Assembly: GCA_024650045.1 (NCBI GenBank)
Contig: JANKMU010000005.1
Coordinates: 79,846 to 120,295 of the forward strand
Length of the DNA: 40,450 nt
Direction of reading: 5' to 3'
DNA from: Mycoplasmatota bacterium
Lineage (GTDB): Bacteria; Bacillota_I; Bacilli_A; Acholeplasmatales; Acholeplasmataceae
This document shows positions 26,766-32,618 of the stretch, one piece after another. Under the pieces are notes generated by a model. The model was not told the DNA's origin. It saw only the letters and a list, made by a program, of their open reading frames with translations, and made no database searches. How positions within the stretch are numbered: position 1 is the stretch's first letter; the number at the start of each line of letters is the position of its first letter. Made by a program: the position numbers and the translations under genes.

Positions 26766-28013
26766 TTAATCTTTATTAATAATGTACTGTTTAAGAAGAT
26801 CTGTTTGTTCAGGTGTTAGTATAACCTTAACATATGTACCGTCTTCTTCATATTTTGTTTCTAAAACTGTGTTGTTTTCTTTAATTTGTGAATAGATTTG
26901 ACCTTTATCAAAAGGAATCTTTAAGTACTGAATCCGATTTGATTTGTAAATATGGCCATAAATTGCATCAACTAAAGTATCAATATTTTCTTTTGTTCGA
27001 TTGGATACAAAGATATAATCCTCTTGTATCTGTGGAGTACTTAGTGCAATTTCTTTTTTTGTTAAAACTAACAATCTTTCGATATGGTCTGCACCTATCT
27101 CATTTAAAACTTGTTTTGTTGTATCAATTTGTAGTTGATTAAAATAAGCACCATCTACAATATGGAGCAGTAAATCTGCACTAACAACATCACTTAGTGT
27201 TGATTCGAAGGAACGAATCAACTCATGTGGAAGCTTTGAAACAAATCCAACTGTATCAACTAAAATAAAAGGTTGATTATTATCTTTCTGTAGTCTTTTA
27301 GCTTTTGTGTCTAGTGTAGCAAACAACATGTTTTTTTCTAATACATGTTCTGAATCATGATGTAAGTAATCACTTAAGCTATTCATAATAGATGATTTAC
27401 CTGCATTCGTATAACCTACTAAAGCAACAACAGGTATTCTATTTTTTATACGTTGCTTTCTAGAAATCTGTTTTTCAGCTTTGATTTTTGCTAATTCAGT
27501 TTTTATTAATGATATATCATTTAATAGTTTTCTACGATCTAACTCTAGTTTTGTTTCACCAGGACCCTTTGCGTTATAACTACCGCCACCTTGTCTTGAA
27601 AGTGAATTGTTTAAACCTACAAGTCTGGGTAACATATACATTTTTTGTGCTAGTGATACTTCTAATACAGCTTCTTTACTTTGAGCTCTTTCTGCAAAGA
27701 TTGAAAGAATTAAAAAACTCCGATCAATGATTTGGATTTCTAACTCTTTTTCTAAATTTTTCAGTTGTGCAGGAGATAGTGTATCGTCAAATATGACGAT
27801 GTCGACATCCAAAACTTCAATCATTTTTTTGATTTCTTGTACTTTACCACTACCAATATAAAATCTTGATGATATTGTTTTTGCGTTTTGAATAACTTTA
27901 TCCTTTGTCTGAATGTCTAATGCTAAAGCCAAATGCTCTAGCTCGTTTAATGAATTTAATGTTTGTTCTGTGGTTTCTTTATAACTTAAACCAACTAATA
28001 ATGCTTGATCCAT
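26766..28013 (-). CDS. hflX: Ribosome-associated GTPase HflX
   Basis: I start at ATG 28011-28013, preceded by TGAGGT; the in-frame ATG at 28082 lies inside a terminator hairpin and has no good Shine-Dalgarno. The product is 415 residues. The HflX-specific N-terminal domain includes RFYIGSGKVQEI (50-61) and LSPAQLKNLE, and the linker SRQGGGSYNAKGPGETKLE (139-157). The G domain has P-loop GYTNAGKS (200-207), DTVGF (253-257) and TKKE near 320. HflX splits stalled or stress-inactivated 70S ribosomes and gives macrolide/lincosamide tolerance in several Gram-positives. A 275-nt leader with two small ORFs and a terminator precedes it, suggesting ribosome-sensing attenuation. Confidence 0.95.
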   Translation of the reverse strand: MDQALLVGLSYKETTEQTLNSLNELEHLALALDIQTKDKVIQNAKTISSRFYIGSGKVQEIKKMIEVLDVDIVIFDDTLSPAQLKNLEKELEIQIIDRSFLILSIFAERAQSKEAVLEVSLAQKMYMLPRLVGLNNSLSRQGGGSYNAKGPGETKLELDRRKLLNDISLIKTELAKIKAEKQISRKQRIKNRIPVVALVGYTNAGKSSIMNSLSDYLHHDSEHVLEKNMLFATLDTKAKRLQKDNNQPFILVDTVGFVSKLPHELIRSFESTLSDVVSADLLLHIVDGAYFNQLQIDTTKQVLNEIGADHIERLLVLTKKEIALSTPQIQEDYIFVSNRTKENIDTLVDAIYGHIYKSNRIQYLKIPFDKGQIYSQIKENNTVLETKYEEDGTYVKVILTPEQTDLLKQYIINKD

Positions 28014-28064
28014 ATATACCTCATGTTTCTCTATCATGCTGATAGGCGTAAGTCTTGCACCCAT

Positions 28065-28116
28065 AAAAAAAGTGCTTTTCATTCTGCCTTATTAAATAAG
28101 ACCATATGAAATGCGC
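28065..28116 (-). terminator. hflX leader attenuator
   Basis: On the minus strand, an imperfect 20-bp hairpin (arms 28116-28097 and 28091-28072, loop TTTAA) with a few mismatches and G-U pairs is followed immediately by seven T (28071-28065). It ends 50 bp before the hflX start, so it would stop transcription before the gene. Confidence 0.75.
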
Positions 28117-28135
28117 CTAAGGATCTGTTAATGTT

Positions 28136-28174
28136 TCAATTGCTTTGAATCATAATTATATTCTTAGGGGGCAT
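28136..28174 (-). CDS. Second hflX leader peptide (12 residues)
   Basis: ATG immediately after the stop of the first leader ORF, same frame, encoding MPPKNIIMIQSN. It lacks its own Shine-Dalgarno, so it would depend on re-initiation. It overlaps GCCCCCTAAG, the proposed antiterminator arm, and begins with Pro-Pro-Lys, a sequence on which ribosomes move slowly. Whether it is translated is uncertain. Confidence 0.35.
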   Translation of the reverse strand: MPPKNIIMIQSN

Positions 28175-28216
28175 TTAAACGATGTTTATCTCAACTTCAT
28201 TTCGTAGTTTAATCAT
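28175..28216 (-). CDS. hflX leader peptide (13 residues)
   Basis: A short ORF encoding MIKLRNEVEINIV with a perfect Shine-Dalgarno AGGAGGT (28229-28223) six bases before its ATG, the best ribosome-binding site in the neighbourhood. It lies about 70 nt after the hflX promoter and ahead of the leader terminator. A tiny ORF with such a site in front of a ribosome-rescue gene is most simply a translation sensor: stalling in it would change folding of the downstream RNA. The peptide itself resembles nothing I recognise. Confidence 0.7.
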   Translation of the reverse strand: MIKLRNEVEINIV

Positions 28217-28234
28217 GTTGATACCTCCTCATAT

Positions 28235-28279
28235 GTATTCAAATAACTTTTTAGGTTTAATTTCTTTTAAGTTGAATAC
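28235..28279 (-). other. Hairpin in the hflX leader upstream of the leader ORF
   Basis: GTATTCAA (28279-28272 on minus) pairs with TTGAATAC (28242-28235), just upstream of the leader-peptide Shine-Dalgarno. Confidence 0.5.
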
Positions 28280-28294
28280 ACTAATATCATTCTT

Positions 28295-28323
28295 ATTATA
28301 GTTCGATATGCCAAAATATGCAA
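28295..28323 (-). promoter_or_regulatory. hflX promoter
   Basis: On the minus strand TTGCAT (28323-28318), exactly 17 nt, TATAAT (28300-28295). Transcription would start near 28288, about 275 nt before the hflX ATG. Confidence 0.8.
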
Positions 28324-28457: not shown

Positions 28458-29204
28458 ATGATATTTGGAATTCCAATTTGGAAAGTGATTGTTGATGCCT
28501 ATATCGTTTGGGTATTGGTCTTTTTCCTAGTCAAAGTATTAGTAAGCAACAAAAGAATGCTATCTATAGCAATCTCCTTTTTATTTGTCTATATCCTTGC
28601 GTATTTTGCAAATCAGTTTAATTTGTTAATTAGTACGCCTGTATTAACGTATTTAGCTGAATGGATGCCTATTTTAATGATTGTTATTATGGCTCCTGAT
28701 ATCAGAAGATCTTTAGAAGTTGTCTGGAAAGCAGATGCAAGATCTGAAACGCTCGTTATGGGTAGTGAAAAGACAAAACAATCGATTGTGGATGCAGCAA
28801 TGTATTTATCTAGCCAAAGCATTGGAGCTTTAATTACGATTGAAAAACATAACACACTTGATCAATATGCAGATCGTGCAATTATGATGAATAGTGAAGT
28901 GTCTAAAGAAGTTTTAATTAATATATTTACACCAAATACTCCATTACATGATGGTGGTGTTATTATCCGTGGAGATAGTATCTTATGTGCAGGAGCATAC
29001 TTTATATTATCCGATAATGAAAATTTCGATAAAACGATGGGTTCTAGACACCGTGCTGGTTTAGGTATTAGTGAAATGACAGATAGTTTAACCATTATTG
29101 TTTCAGAAGAAACAGGACATGTTTCAATTGCTGTAGAAGGCATCATGTTAAAGATCAATGATCGAGACAAATTGATGGAATACATCAATATGTTCATGAA
29201 GTGA
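28458..29204 (+). CDS. cdaA: Diadenylate cyclase CdaA (c-di-AMP synthase)
   Basis: A 248-residue membrane enzyme making c-di-AMP from two ATP. Three N-terminal helices (about 7-28, 34-53, 63-79) precede the DAC (DisA_N) domain at about 100-230. The catalytic DGA motif reads DGG (165-167) within HDGGVIIRG, and RHR (197-199) is in GSRHRAGLGISE. Variation of the third DGA residue to Gly keeps the catalytic Asp, so activity is likely. In most Bacillota cdaA is followed by cdaR and glmM; here neither follows, and a 59-residue membrane protein plus a PAS/GGDEF protein take the place. AAGGAG precedes the ATG. Confidence 0.95.
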   Translation: MIFGIPIWKVIVDAYIVWVLVFFLVKVLVSNKRMLSIAISFLFVYILAYFANQFNLLISTPVLTYLAEWMPILMIVIMAPDIRRSLEVVWKADARSETLVMGSEKTKQSIVDAAMYLSSQSIGALITIEKHNTLDQYADRAIMMNSEVSKEVLINIFTPNTPLHDGGVIIRGDSILCAGAYFILSDNENFDKTMGSRHRAGLGISEMTDSLTIIVSEETGHVSIAVEGIMLKINDRDKLMEYINMFMK

Positions 29205-29395: not shown

Positions 29396-30976
29396 ATGCT
29401 TTTACAACATCCTATATATCCATTAATCATTACTTTCTTCACATTGTTTCTTGTAGTTATCCAAAGTATTCAAAGTGAAAAAGTTTTAAAAAATCGACTC
29501 ATACTCGCTTTTTTTAACATTACCATCGCAGTGATGGTTTTTGTTATATATGAATCTATGGTTGTTGGTAACTTGATGTATCAAGATATCTATATTGGAT
29601 TTAATTTCTTTGTATATTTTGTATTTCTACTCGTTTTGTACTCAACCTTTAAAACAGCTATACTAAAAGCTAACCATTATCAATTATTTGTTAAATCAAT
29701 TAAAAATAGTCGATGGAATGCTTATTATGTCGTTGATGCTAAAGAACGTGTTCGAGATATGTCTTCAAGTTTATTACATGAACTCAACTTAGAAAAAGAA
29801 GATATTATAGGTAAGAAGTTTTTTAGTGTATTAAATAAATCAATTCGATTTACGAAATTTAATGGCAATGATATTAATAATAGAGGTTTAGAGAATTATT
29901 TCTTAGAGTATAAAGAAAATGCAAAACCAGGTGATAGTGAAGTTCAAGAATTAACATTTTTGAATTTTGATGGGAATCCTGTCATTTTACATATGGTTAT
30001 GCAGCCAGTTTATGCACTCGGAAAATATAAAGGCAGAATATGTGTTGGTGAAAAGAAAACAGATTTTGATTTATTAGCTGTTGAAAAAGAATTAAATGAT
30101 CGAAGTACAGAATTAGAAAGCATTAGACATAAATTTATAGCCACCCTTCAAATTAGTGAAGAAGGTTTGTTTTATATTGATTTAGATGAAAGAACGATTT
30201 GGGCAAGTGATGCCTTAGTTCGGATGCTTAATCTTCCTGGTAACACATTAGACTTAACGGATTTTAGAAGAATGATCGAAGCAGAAGATTTGAAAAAATA
30301 TTTGGCTTTATTAGGTGATTTAAGCATTAATAAGAAACAATATGCTACATCTTATAGAATTATGGTTAATAATAGATATATGTGGTTCAAAGAAAAAGGA
30401 ATTCGATTATTTGAAGACCAACATAGCGCAGTTATTATGGGTACATTAAATCCAATGAAAACCAAACATTATCTAGCAAGTAATATTGACGAATTAGATA
30501 AATTAAAAGACCATAACGAAATGATGGTTTCGATGAACAAGTTGTTTAATGATAATCGCTATTTCCAATTGGTTCTAATTAGATTAAAAAATATGCCAAA
30601 GATTAATGAAACACATGGTCGAGAAGTCGGAAATATGTTGATGGCTGAATATATTAAAAAATTAAGAACAACTTTTGTTACTGAAAGTGGAGATATATTT
30701 AGAGTATCAGGTATTGAATTTGCAATTACGATTACTGATCCAAGAAAAATGGATGTCTTAGCAAATGGAATTAAGTCTAATAAAACATTCTTAAATTTAA
30801 CGATGCAATACGGATCGATTTCAGCAGAACTTGAAGTTTTTGCAGGTATATCAATTGGTGGAAGTGATGCACATGATGAGCATCAATTATACCAAGCATC
30901 TTTACAAGCTTTAAAGATTGCTGAAAATCCACAATTTAACGCACATGGATGTTACTATAAGGATATTGTGTCATGA
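29396..30976 (+). CDS. Membrane protein with two PAS-like domains and a degenerate GGDEF domain
   Basis: A 526-residue protein. Three membrane helices lie at about 8-24, 35-55 and 66-86. A PAS-like domain spans about 100-215 (WNAYYVVDAKERVRDMSSSL), a helical linker about 222-247, a second PAS-like domain about 250-355 (GLFYIDLDERTIWASDALVRM; end MWFKEKGIRLFED), and a GGDEF fold about 365-526 (LVLIRLKNMPKINETHGREV at 392-411). The active-site GGDEF is replaced by SGIEF (438-442), and the metal/substrate residues are largely lost, so diguanylate cyclase activity is unlikely. The layout recalls the PAS plus degenerate GGDEF of GdpP, but the DHH-DHHA1 phosphodiesterase part is absent. The position right after cdaA suggests a c-di-AMP-related sensor. 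The stop overlaps the fau start. Confidence 0.82.
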   Translation: MLLQHPIYPLIITFFTLFLVVIQSIQSEKVLKNRLILAFFNITIAVMVFVIYESMVVGNLMYQDIYIGFNFFVYFVFLLVLYSTFKTAILKANHYQLFVKSIKNSRWNAYYVVDAKERVRDMSSSLLHELNLEKEDIIGKKFFSVLNKSIRFTKFNGNDINNRGLENYFLEYKENAKPGDSEVQELTFLNFDGNPVILHMVMQPVYALGKYKGRICVGEKKTDFDLLAVEKELNDRSTELESIRHKFIATLQISEEGLFYIDLDERTIWASDALVRMLNLPGNTLDLTDFRRMIEAEDLKKYLALLGDLSINKKQYATSYRIMVNNRYMWFKEKGIRLFEDQHSAVIMGTLNPMKTKHYLASNIDELDKLKDHNEMMVSMNKLFNDNRYFQLVLIRLKNMPKINETHGREVGNMLMAEYIKKLRTTFVTESGDIFRVSGIEFAITITDPRKMDVLANGIKSNKTFLNLTMQYGSISAELEVFAGISIGGSDAHDEHQLYQASLQALKIAENPQFNAHGCYYKDIVS

Positions 30977-31491
30977 CAAAAAAAGAGATAAGAAAACAAA
31001 TGATGGAGACAAGAAGTCAATTTGACCGCTCAGAAATGAGAAAGAAAAACCGTCACATCATTCAACAAATTAAACACGACAAAGATTACCATAATGCAAA
31101 GTGTGTTGCTATCTTTTATCCTATGCGAAATGAAGTTAACTTACTGGAATTATTAAATCTAAAAAAGACTTTTGCTTTTCCAAAAATTATGGATGACGGC
31201 ATGCATTTCATTAAATATTATCCTCACCAAGAATTTGCGGCTAGCAATTTTGGCGTATCAGAACCTATCAAAGGTGATATTATTGATGATCAAATCGACT
31301 ATATACTTACACCTGCCTTAGCAATATCAAAAAAAGGATATCGCGTAGGATATGGAAAAGGATATTATGATCAATTTTTATCGAAGCATCGTCCAAATCA
31401 CGTTGTTGGTGTTATTTACGATTTTCAAGAGATAGAAGATTTTGAAGTTAACGAACATGATCAAAAATTAGATAAATACATCAAGGGGTAA
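30973..31491 (+). CDS. fau: 5-formyltetrahydrofolate cyclo-ligase
   Basis: A 172-residue enzyme (MTHFS/YgfA family) that converts 5-formyl-THF to 5,10-methenyl-THF with ATP. The nucleotide/folate motif GYRVGYGKGYYDQFL is at 122-136, and the N-terminal basic KKEIRKQMMETR is typical. VAIFYPMRNEVN and the ILTPALAI strand also match. The start overlaps the previous stop by ATGA, so translation is coupled to the cdaA operon. Confidence 0.94.
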   Translation: MTKKEIRKQMMETRSQFDRSEMRKKNRHIIQQIKHDKDYHNAKCVAIFYPMRNEVNLLELLNLKKTFAFPKIMDDGMHFIKYYPHQEFAASNFGVSEPIKGDIIDDQIDYILTPALAISKKGYRVGYGKGYYDQFLSKHRPNHVVGVIYDFQEIEDFEVNEHDQKLDKYIKG

Positions 31492-31493
31492 AA

Positions 31494-32618
31494 ATGAATA
31501 CTGCACTTATCGTTGCTGCCGGTACTGGTAGCAGGGCTGGAACCAGTCAATCAAAAATCTTATATCCGATTCACAACAAGCCTCTGTTTATATATTCGCT
31601 AGAGACTTTTTTATCCTTAGGATATCAAATCGTTTTGGTTGTAGCAAAAGATGATATCAATGAAATCAAACAATATGTCACAGAAGACATCAAATTGGTT
31701 ATTGGTGGTAAAACAAGAAGTGAAAGTGTTATGTTAGGTTTAAAAGAAGTCCAAACCCCATATGTTTATATACATGATGCTGCAAGACCACTAATATCTC
31801 AACAAATGATACTAGAAGTTGAGAAAGCCTTAGAATATCACGATGCAGTATTGCTCGCTGAAAGACTAACGAGCGCACTCAAACGTTTTGAGCAAAATGA
31901 AGTTTCGACAAGTCTAAATAGAAATGAGTACCTATTATCTCAAACACCACAAGCGTTTTTGACTGAAAAAATTAGATATGCTTATATTAGGAATGATCAA
32001 TCTTATGATGACGATATCTCACTTTACCAAGCTTTCTATCCTGAAGAAAAAATACATGTCGTATTTAATACAGAACCAAATCTTAAAGTAACATACCCGC
32101 AAGATTTTTTATATGTTAAACTACATTTAGAAGGAGATGAACCTATGCGTATTGGACATAGTTTCGATATTCACCAACTTGTTGAAAATAGATCACTTAT
32201 TTTAGGTGGTATCCAAATACCTCACCATAAAGGTCTTTTAGGACATAGTGATGCTGATGTTTTATTACATGCAATTTCAGAAGCAATGCTTGGAGCATTA
32301 GGTTTAGGAGATCTTGGTACGTTTTATCCAGACACAAGTTCAACATTCAAAGACATCAGTTCAATGAAAATATTAATTCAAGTTTATGATATGATTAGAC
32401 AAAAGGGTTATGAAATTGGTAATATAGATACGACGATTTATGCAGAACAACCTAAAATAAATCCACACATCTTAGAAATCAAACAAAATATTGCTAAATC
32501 ACTCAATATAGCAGAAGATCAAATCAGTGTTAAAGCAACCACATATGAAAAGATGGATGCAATAGGAAAAGAAGATGCAATCGCTGCAGAGGCTGTTGTT
32601 TTACTAAAGAAGGTGTAA
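31494..32618 (+). CDS. ispDF: Bifunctional IspD-IspF (MEP pathway)
   Basis: A 374-residue fusion. Residues 1 to about 212 are IspD (MEP cytidylyltransferase): VAAGTGSRAG (7-16) with Lys21, GGKTRSESVMLGL, HDAARPLI and TPQAF. Residues 218-374 are IspF (MECDP synthase): RIGHSFDIHQL with metal ligands Asp225 and His227, GHSDADVLLHA, GDLGTFYPD, and the ATTYEKMDAIGKEDAIAAEA end. Together they carry out the third and fifth steps of isoprenoid precursor synthesis. IspDF fusions are known in some proteobacteria and scattered other bacteria; most Bacillus relatives have separate genes. AAGGAG at 32131-32136 lies eight bases before codon Met218, so free IspF could also be made. Confidence 0.95.
   Translation: MNTALIVAAGTGSRAGTSQSKILYPIHNKPLFIYSLETFLSLGYQIVLVVAKDDINEIKQYVTEDIKLVIGGKTRSESVMLGLKEVQTPYVYIHDAARPLISQQMILEVEKALEYHDAVLLAERLTSALKRFEQNEVSTSLNRNEYLLSQTPQAFLTEKIRYAYIRNDQSYDDDISLYQAFYPEEKIHVVFNTEPNLKVTYPQDFLYVKLHLEGDEPMRIGHSFDIHQLVENRSLILGGIQIPHHKGLLGHSDADVLLHAISEAMLGALGLGDLGTFYPDTSSTFKDISSMKILIQVYDMIRQKGYEIGNIDTTIYAEQPKINPHILEIKQNIAKSLNIAEDQISVKATTYEKMDAIGKEDAIAAEAVVLLKKV
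32131..32147 (+). promoter_or_regulatory. Possible internal ribosome-binding site for IspF
   Basis: AAGGAG (32131-32136) and ATG (32145-32147) within the ispDF frame, at the exact domain boundary. Confidence 0.5.

Follow-up and report, generated by a model that had tools for sequence, protein, structure and literature searches.

The ermC leader is a case of translational attenuation by a drug-arrest peptide. In ermC/ermD-type leaders, as we propose for the leader described below, the arrested leader peptide controls access to the downstream RBS (ermD: PMC8298421), and Arg/Lys-X-Arg/Lys is a site of macrolide and ketolide arrest, which also serves in ErmDL and in short MRLR peptides (PMC8298421). 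The rli80-hflXr (lmo0762) system of Listeria monocytogenes resembles our locus in its hflX-type gene, its short leader, its uORF of similar size, and its mutually exclusive pairings and intrinsic terminator, the last of these being found here in the window species (PMC6310831). The uORFC-6-1 candidate, mainly from Bacillales, is likewise a +X+ uORF candidate with covarying structure located before hflX, as described in the available part of PMC8632094, and that part does not name the Acholeplasmataceae for the motif. In the E. coli toiL-topAI system, stalling on a uORF induced by ribosome-targeting antibiotics opens the RBS of the main gene (PMC12121999), as is predicted here. Among open-licence papers, our searches located the systems of Listeria and Bacillales but no description of an hflX attenuator or leader peptide in the Acholeplasmataceae.

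The window analyzed here, that is, the whole stretch of DNA, comprises 40,450 nucleotides from a 1.89-Mb bacterial genome. Among named relatives, the closest that we found was Peloplasma aerotolerans (HflX 98% identical), a free-living Mollicute from a mud volcano (PMC11122141). The host is a free-living, wall-less bacterium of the Peloplasma group. Its hflX gene (26766-28013, minus strand; start at 28013) encodes a ribosome-splitting GTPase (TIGR03156, 376.6 bits; cut-off, 216.75) and is a single copy, with one match in a search of its own genome; no second, duplicated hflX beside the canonical copy, as in HflXr, was found in the host genome. From sequence comparison and folding models, we propose that the leader of this sole hflX is a uORF-based attenuator that uses ribosome stalling as its signal, and we give this reading a probability of about 0.68.

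The surroundings of the gene were also inspected. The diadenylate cyclase gene cdaA (28458-29204, plus strand) is divergent from hflX, both in the window and in many relatives. On the cdaA strand, the following gene (29396-30976) had no NCBIfam match at 1e-10, and a 5-formyltetrahydrofolate cyclo-ligase gene (30973-31491) adjoins a fused IspD-IspF gene (31494-32618, plus strand), a bifunctional MEP-pathway enzyme in a Mollicute relative. In genus g7, whose genomes are reduced (0.3 to 0.9 Mb; e.g., G025 and G076-G103), no hflX match was found in any listed genome.

The hflX leader and its leader peptide

All leader features lie on the minus strand. The promoter boxes TTGCAT (28318-28323) and TATAAT (28295-28300), separated by a 17-nt spacer, were read directly at 28295-28323, as an earlier, sequence-only reading of this DNA had claimed, and TATAAT stood at the corresponding place in all leaders of three genera (g1, which includes the window species, g10, and g15). 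The hairpin placed by that reading ahead of the leader ORF was recovered as a 5' stem-loop between the transcript start and the Shine-Dalgarno (SD) sequence (28233-28281); compared with relatives, its stem was kept and its loop changed in P. aerotolerans, and a pre-SD hairpin was present in g1 and most g15 leaders and absent in g10. The perfect SD sequence and 13-codon ORF of the same reading were both present, as GAGGAGGT (28223-28230) and MIKLRNEVEINIV (28175-28216, ATG to TAA), and the uORF differed from that of P. aerotolerans by one synonymous change. Overlapping the uORF stop codon and extending just 3' of it is arm 1 (AAATGCCCCCTAAG, 28163-28176). Its partner, arm 2 (GATCCTTAGGCGCATTT, 28109-28125), contains CTTAGGCGC (28113-28121) and is also the 5' side of an intrinsic-terminator-like hairpin with U7 (28065-28117), where an imperfect hairpin followed by seven T residues had been claimed. 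Farther downstream are CGCCUA (28043-28048), complementary to UAGGCG of arm 2 and able to pair with it in the minimum-free-energy (OFF) fold with a ribosome at the uORF stop, and the hflX SD and start codon region (28005-28024), the predicted target of arm 2, in which GGATC complements GATCC of arm 2. A second in-frame ORF beginning MPPK (MPPKNIIMIQSN, 28136-28174) exists as previously noted, but among the relatives it recurs only in P. aerotolerans, whose leader is 93% identical, and it was rejected as part of the leader.

Leaders of hflX were drawn from the genus (g1), the family, and the order. A DNA search of 61 genomes was rejected as a means of comparison: only the P. aerotolerans leader was matched as such, and for other congeners the match was confined to the final 36 bases at the hflX start, plus two chance matches. 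Leaders were therefore compared through the hflX gene. A uORF of 10 to 16 codons with a strong SD sequence, including GGAGG, was present in all 25 readable leaders of g1, g10, and g15, ending 69 to 222 nt upstream of hflX, and the rate of such uORFs in shuffled sequences was 0.31%; this comparison demonstrates that the uORF is a conserved element. Among other genera in the family, none of 25 regions upstream of hflX had such a uORF. No such leader was seen in the other genera and families examined, most of which had a promoter close to hflX or had hflX behind another gene. The g8 species L043 has no such leader and falls among g1 in the HflX tree, which suggests that the leader was lost. No Rfam family was detected in the window at the gathering score, and a permissive search of the leader gave one snoRNA match at chance level. 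Two further features were noted outside this framework: a block close to GCAGTTTGTT, lying between the uORF and hflX and outside the arms described, is common to two genera (L040 and L042 of g10; L041 and L044-L047 of g15), and g15 leaders have a local GCUC...GAGC hairpin directly after the uORF stop.

The window uORF contains Lys-Leu-Arg codons (28202-28210), the +X+ (Lys/Arg-X-Lys/Arg) motif of macrolide-arrest leader peptides, which the sequence-only reading overlooked. Lys-Leu-Arg occurred in 10 of the 25 uORFs (the window and nine others, from g1 and g15) in seven different codon spellings, a constraint that points to selection on the peptide. The motif was missing from the other 15, so that the inducer may differ among clades. 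The tree requires four changes of this trait, which means either an ancestral motif that was lost in places or one that arose repeatedly. Peptides of other clades were unrelated (MSTTLSYSGNR, MLMTFVKCILC, and MYSELKLEFNLIITVC) and are perhaps tuned to other stalls. When GGAGG..ATG..KLR was sought outside hflX in 20 congeneric genomes, matches were not clearly above the ordinary gene-start background, and the other MIKLR match checked in the host genome (G000:C38) starts an ordinary 175-aa ORF.

Arm pairing and predicted switching

The whole window leader folded better than its shuffles (z, -2.78), and the terminator hairpin did so at -14.3 kcal/mol (z, -2.2). The pairing between 28172-28163 and 28121-28113 claimed previously was found, but its extent was not as described: the best pairing of arm 1 with arm 2 is longer (AAAUGC-CC-CCUAAG with CUUAGG-C-GCAUUU, -13.2 kcal/mol). 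Covariation among hflX leaders was examined by swapping arms between species. Arm 1, which starts at the uORF stop or within a few bases of it, paired with its own arm 2 at a mean of -13.0 kcal/mol versus -7.8 kcal/mol with an arm 2 from another clade (clade-level permutation, p = 5e-5). These results demonstrate that the arms coevolve and, together with the uORF found in 25 of 25 leaders, indicate that the leader is more than a product of chance.

To avoid circularity, arm 2 was then defined anew by its pairing with arm 1 alone, as the strongest partner of that arm. So defined, it was also the best leader partner of the hflX start/SD region in 17 of 18 leaders (one of them has no alternative segment for comparison), and its pairing with that region had a mean z of -2.0 against shuffled arms. 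GATCC, which complements the GGAUC of the hflX start (AUGGAUC), was present in 14 of 18 leaders against 1.15 expected, tying with TTTTA as the commonest leader 5-mer. In L023, whose hflX start reads GGACC instead, GATCC has given way to GGTACC, which is complementary to GGTACC in its own RBS. The dual complementarity of arm 2 is therefore demonstrated by comparison. This arm-defined test replaced one of the longest leader-to-start complementarity in each sequence, which was not significant (mean z, 0.35), and a cross-species swap of arm 2 against the start was uninformative (p = 0.16) because the hflX start hardly varies.

The null result for the longest complementarity and single-sequence folds that exceed shuffles only moderately (z, -2.2 to -2.8) could be taken to mean that the leader is fortuitous, a chance hairpin and an unused short ORF with chance complementarity in an AT-rich spacer; conservation and coevolution across three genera make this reading barely credible.

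We next consider the effect of ribosome position in folding models. Relative to a ribosome at the uORF stop, an early stall lowered the cost of opening the hflX RBS by a mean of 2.0 kcal/mol, with a decrease in 19 of 25 leaders; shuffling of arm 1 brought the difference to +0.08. No gain was predicted for three of four L013-type leaders (L014, L016, and L028) or for three g15 leaders (L041, L045, and L047). For the window, the cost was 6.1 kcal/mol in the OFF model versus 3.4 kcal/mol in the ON model. When the RNA was folded with the U run as its 3' end, the terminator base formed with a probability of 0.99 with the ribosome on the uORF stop versus 0.31 with a stall at codons 4-5, and the upper stem with probabilities of 0.97 and 0.75, respectively. 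Since the upper stem mostly stays formed, a stall would shift the stem off the U run and not abolish the hairpin. The claim that arm pairing removes the terminator base holds for opening of the base, with most of the upper stem staying in place. Also supported is the idea that the GCCCCC arm is hidden by a ribosome that has reached the uORF stop and freed by an early stall. Taken together, coevolution and the folding models indicate that ribosome position sets mutually exclusive pairings, either arm 1 with arm 2 or arm 2 with the hflX start and terminator.

Under the proposed mechanism, ribosomes in unstressed cells would finish the uORF and cover arm 1 while at the stop codon, leaving arm 2 free to occlude the hflX start (OFF) and, in the window species, also to complete the intrinsic terminator. 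An early stall, for which Lys3-Leu4-Arg5 with a bound macrolide-type drug is the most plausible site, would expose arm 1, which would capture arm 2 and open both the terminator base and the hflX start (ON). The HflX produced would split stalled ribosomes and so reset the switch. Translation of the uORF, drug-dependent arrest, the direction of the switch, and this feedback are what we infer from the comparisons and models. Ribosome-free RNA favored the ON pairing in the folding model, so OFF would need ribosomes to occupy the end of the uORF frequently; a perfect SD sequence agrees with this without proving it.

Because ribosome-free and early-stalled RNAs both favor the ON pairing, the leader might instead be a general sensor of translation speed or of Leu/Arg supply, turned ON by any failure to complete the uORF and not by drugs. 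The variation of the peptide between clades would fit completion mattering more than one particular peptide, and HflX is a general rescue factor. The uORFs have no single-amino-acid run, however, and Lys-Leu-Arg, which ten leaders preserve at the peptide level, matches a drug-arrest motif; these points make a general sensor improbable. We retain drug-dependent stalling as the preferred reading. P. aerotolerans is reported to be lincomycin sensitive (PMC11122141), which counts against this reading, and strong drug resistance is therefore not implied by the hflX switch.

Proposed transcriptional and translational outputs

The hairpin of -13.2 kcal/mol with U7 was seen only in the window species and P. 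aerotolerans. A simple terminator scan found none in the window leader because the stem is interrupted; a stable, interrupted stem followed by a U run is present in both species. Leaders L021, L023, L024, and L027 had at most weak terminator candidates. Attenuation could operate on transcription only, the terminator being the sole output and the complementarity of arm 2 to the start incidental. The Listeria hflXr leader operates in this way (PMC6310831), the U7 hairpin is present in these two species, arm 1 pairing competes with the hairpin base, and the pairing of arm 2 with the start is weak in the window species (z, -0.4), which also counts against the reading that we prefer. Yet other species lack a convincing terminator in leaders that retain the uORF and both arms, and in those leaders arm 2 fits the hflX start; we therefore consider a purely transcriptional switch unlikely, although the least so of the alternatives weighed.

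Since the hflX start/SD region finds its best partner in arm 2 in nearly all of the leaders compared, the conserved switch is probably translational and acts at that region. The earlier description of a translation-sensing attenuator is supported, but the transcription terminator that it describes is confined to the window species and its nearest relative. In the window species, both outputs seem to be present, and the transcriptional one is probably dominant because of the weak pairing of arm 2 with the start there; the other leaders of the genus and those of genus g10 apparently have a translational output alone. In the simplest history, the genus had a translational attenuator and the window lineage gained a terminator, which is now probably the main output there; the reverse order, with the terminator first, is possible.

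Relation to HflXr and known attenuators

An HflX tree was built with Listeria HflXr (the sequence of PDB 8a57) and duplicated copies from other Bacilli. PDB 8a57 is presumably HflXr, although the record itself says GTPase HflX. The HflXr clade (96/96) did not include the Acholeplasmataceae, and forcing their HflX into it was marginally rejected (p-AU, 0.047). Because HflX here is the sole copy and lies outside that clade, the leader, which controls a sole non-HflXr hflX, probably arose separately, in support of the independence from the Listeria case that had been suggested. Three HflXr-clade copies of other Bacilli (L092, L095, and L103) were preceded by uORFs that encode RLR or a similar motif (MRLRR, MNIRGCIHSIRLRG, and MFSIGRMRLSSVNQ); their leaders are probably hflXr-type attenuators, which agrees with what has been published on hflXr and uORFC-6-1 leaders (PMC6310831; PMC8632094).

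A broader reading is that in free-living Mollicutes a single housekeeping hflX came under a drug-sensing uORF independently of HflXr, with the output re-wired from start-codon block to termination between close species and the peptide diversified, possibly re-tuned to other drug classes. We offer this tentatively, as an account somewhat more apt to fail than to hold. The proposed switch itself suggests that a housekeeping ribosome-splitting factor, and not just a specialized HflXr copy, can be drug inducible. One genus would also supply a series of leaders in which a shared type of sensor allows transcriptional and translational attenuation to be compared, as in a natural experiment on the transition between them.

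Compared with the Listeria system, the +X+ motif is KLR here instead of RLR, arm 1 lies at the uORF stop whereas the anti-anti-terminator of Listeria lies in the uORF region, and the gene is the only copy, outside the HflXr clade, whereas that of Listeria is a second, HflXr copy (PMC6310831). Early ribosome stalling as the ON signal was shown for Listeria hflXr (PMC6310831) and is proposed here, and in most relatives of the window species the target would be the hflX start codon and not a terminator. The uORFC-6-1 motif, likened to ours by its description, is Arg-Leu-Arg in contrast to KLR, belongs to another lineage, and was proposed to affect transcription (PMC8632094). The toiL-topAI system involves an unrelated gene and lineage and is Rho coupled (PMC12121999), whereas here an intrinsic terminator is found in one lineage. 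Finally, the ermC/ermD product is a methylase and that of our locus a ribosome splitter, and where ermC/ermD leaders use a preformed hairpin pair, the hflX leader would be a three-segment switch in which completion of the uORF exposes the sequestering arm.
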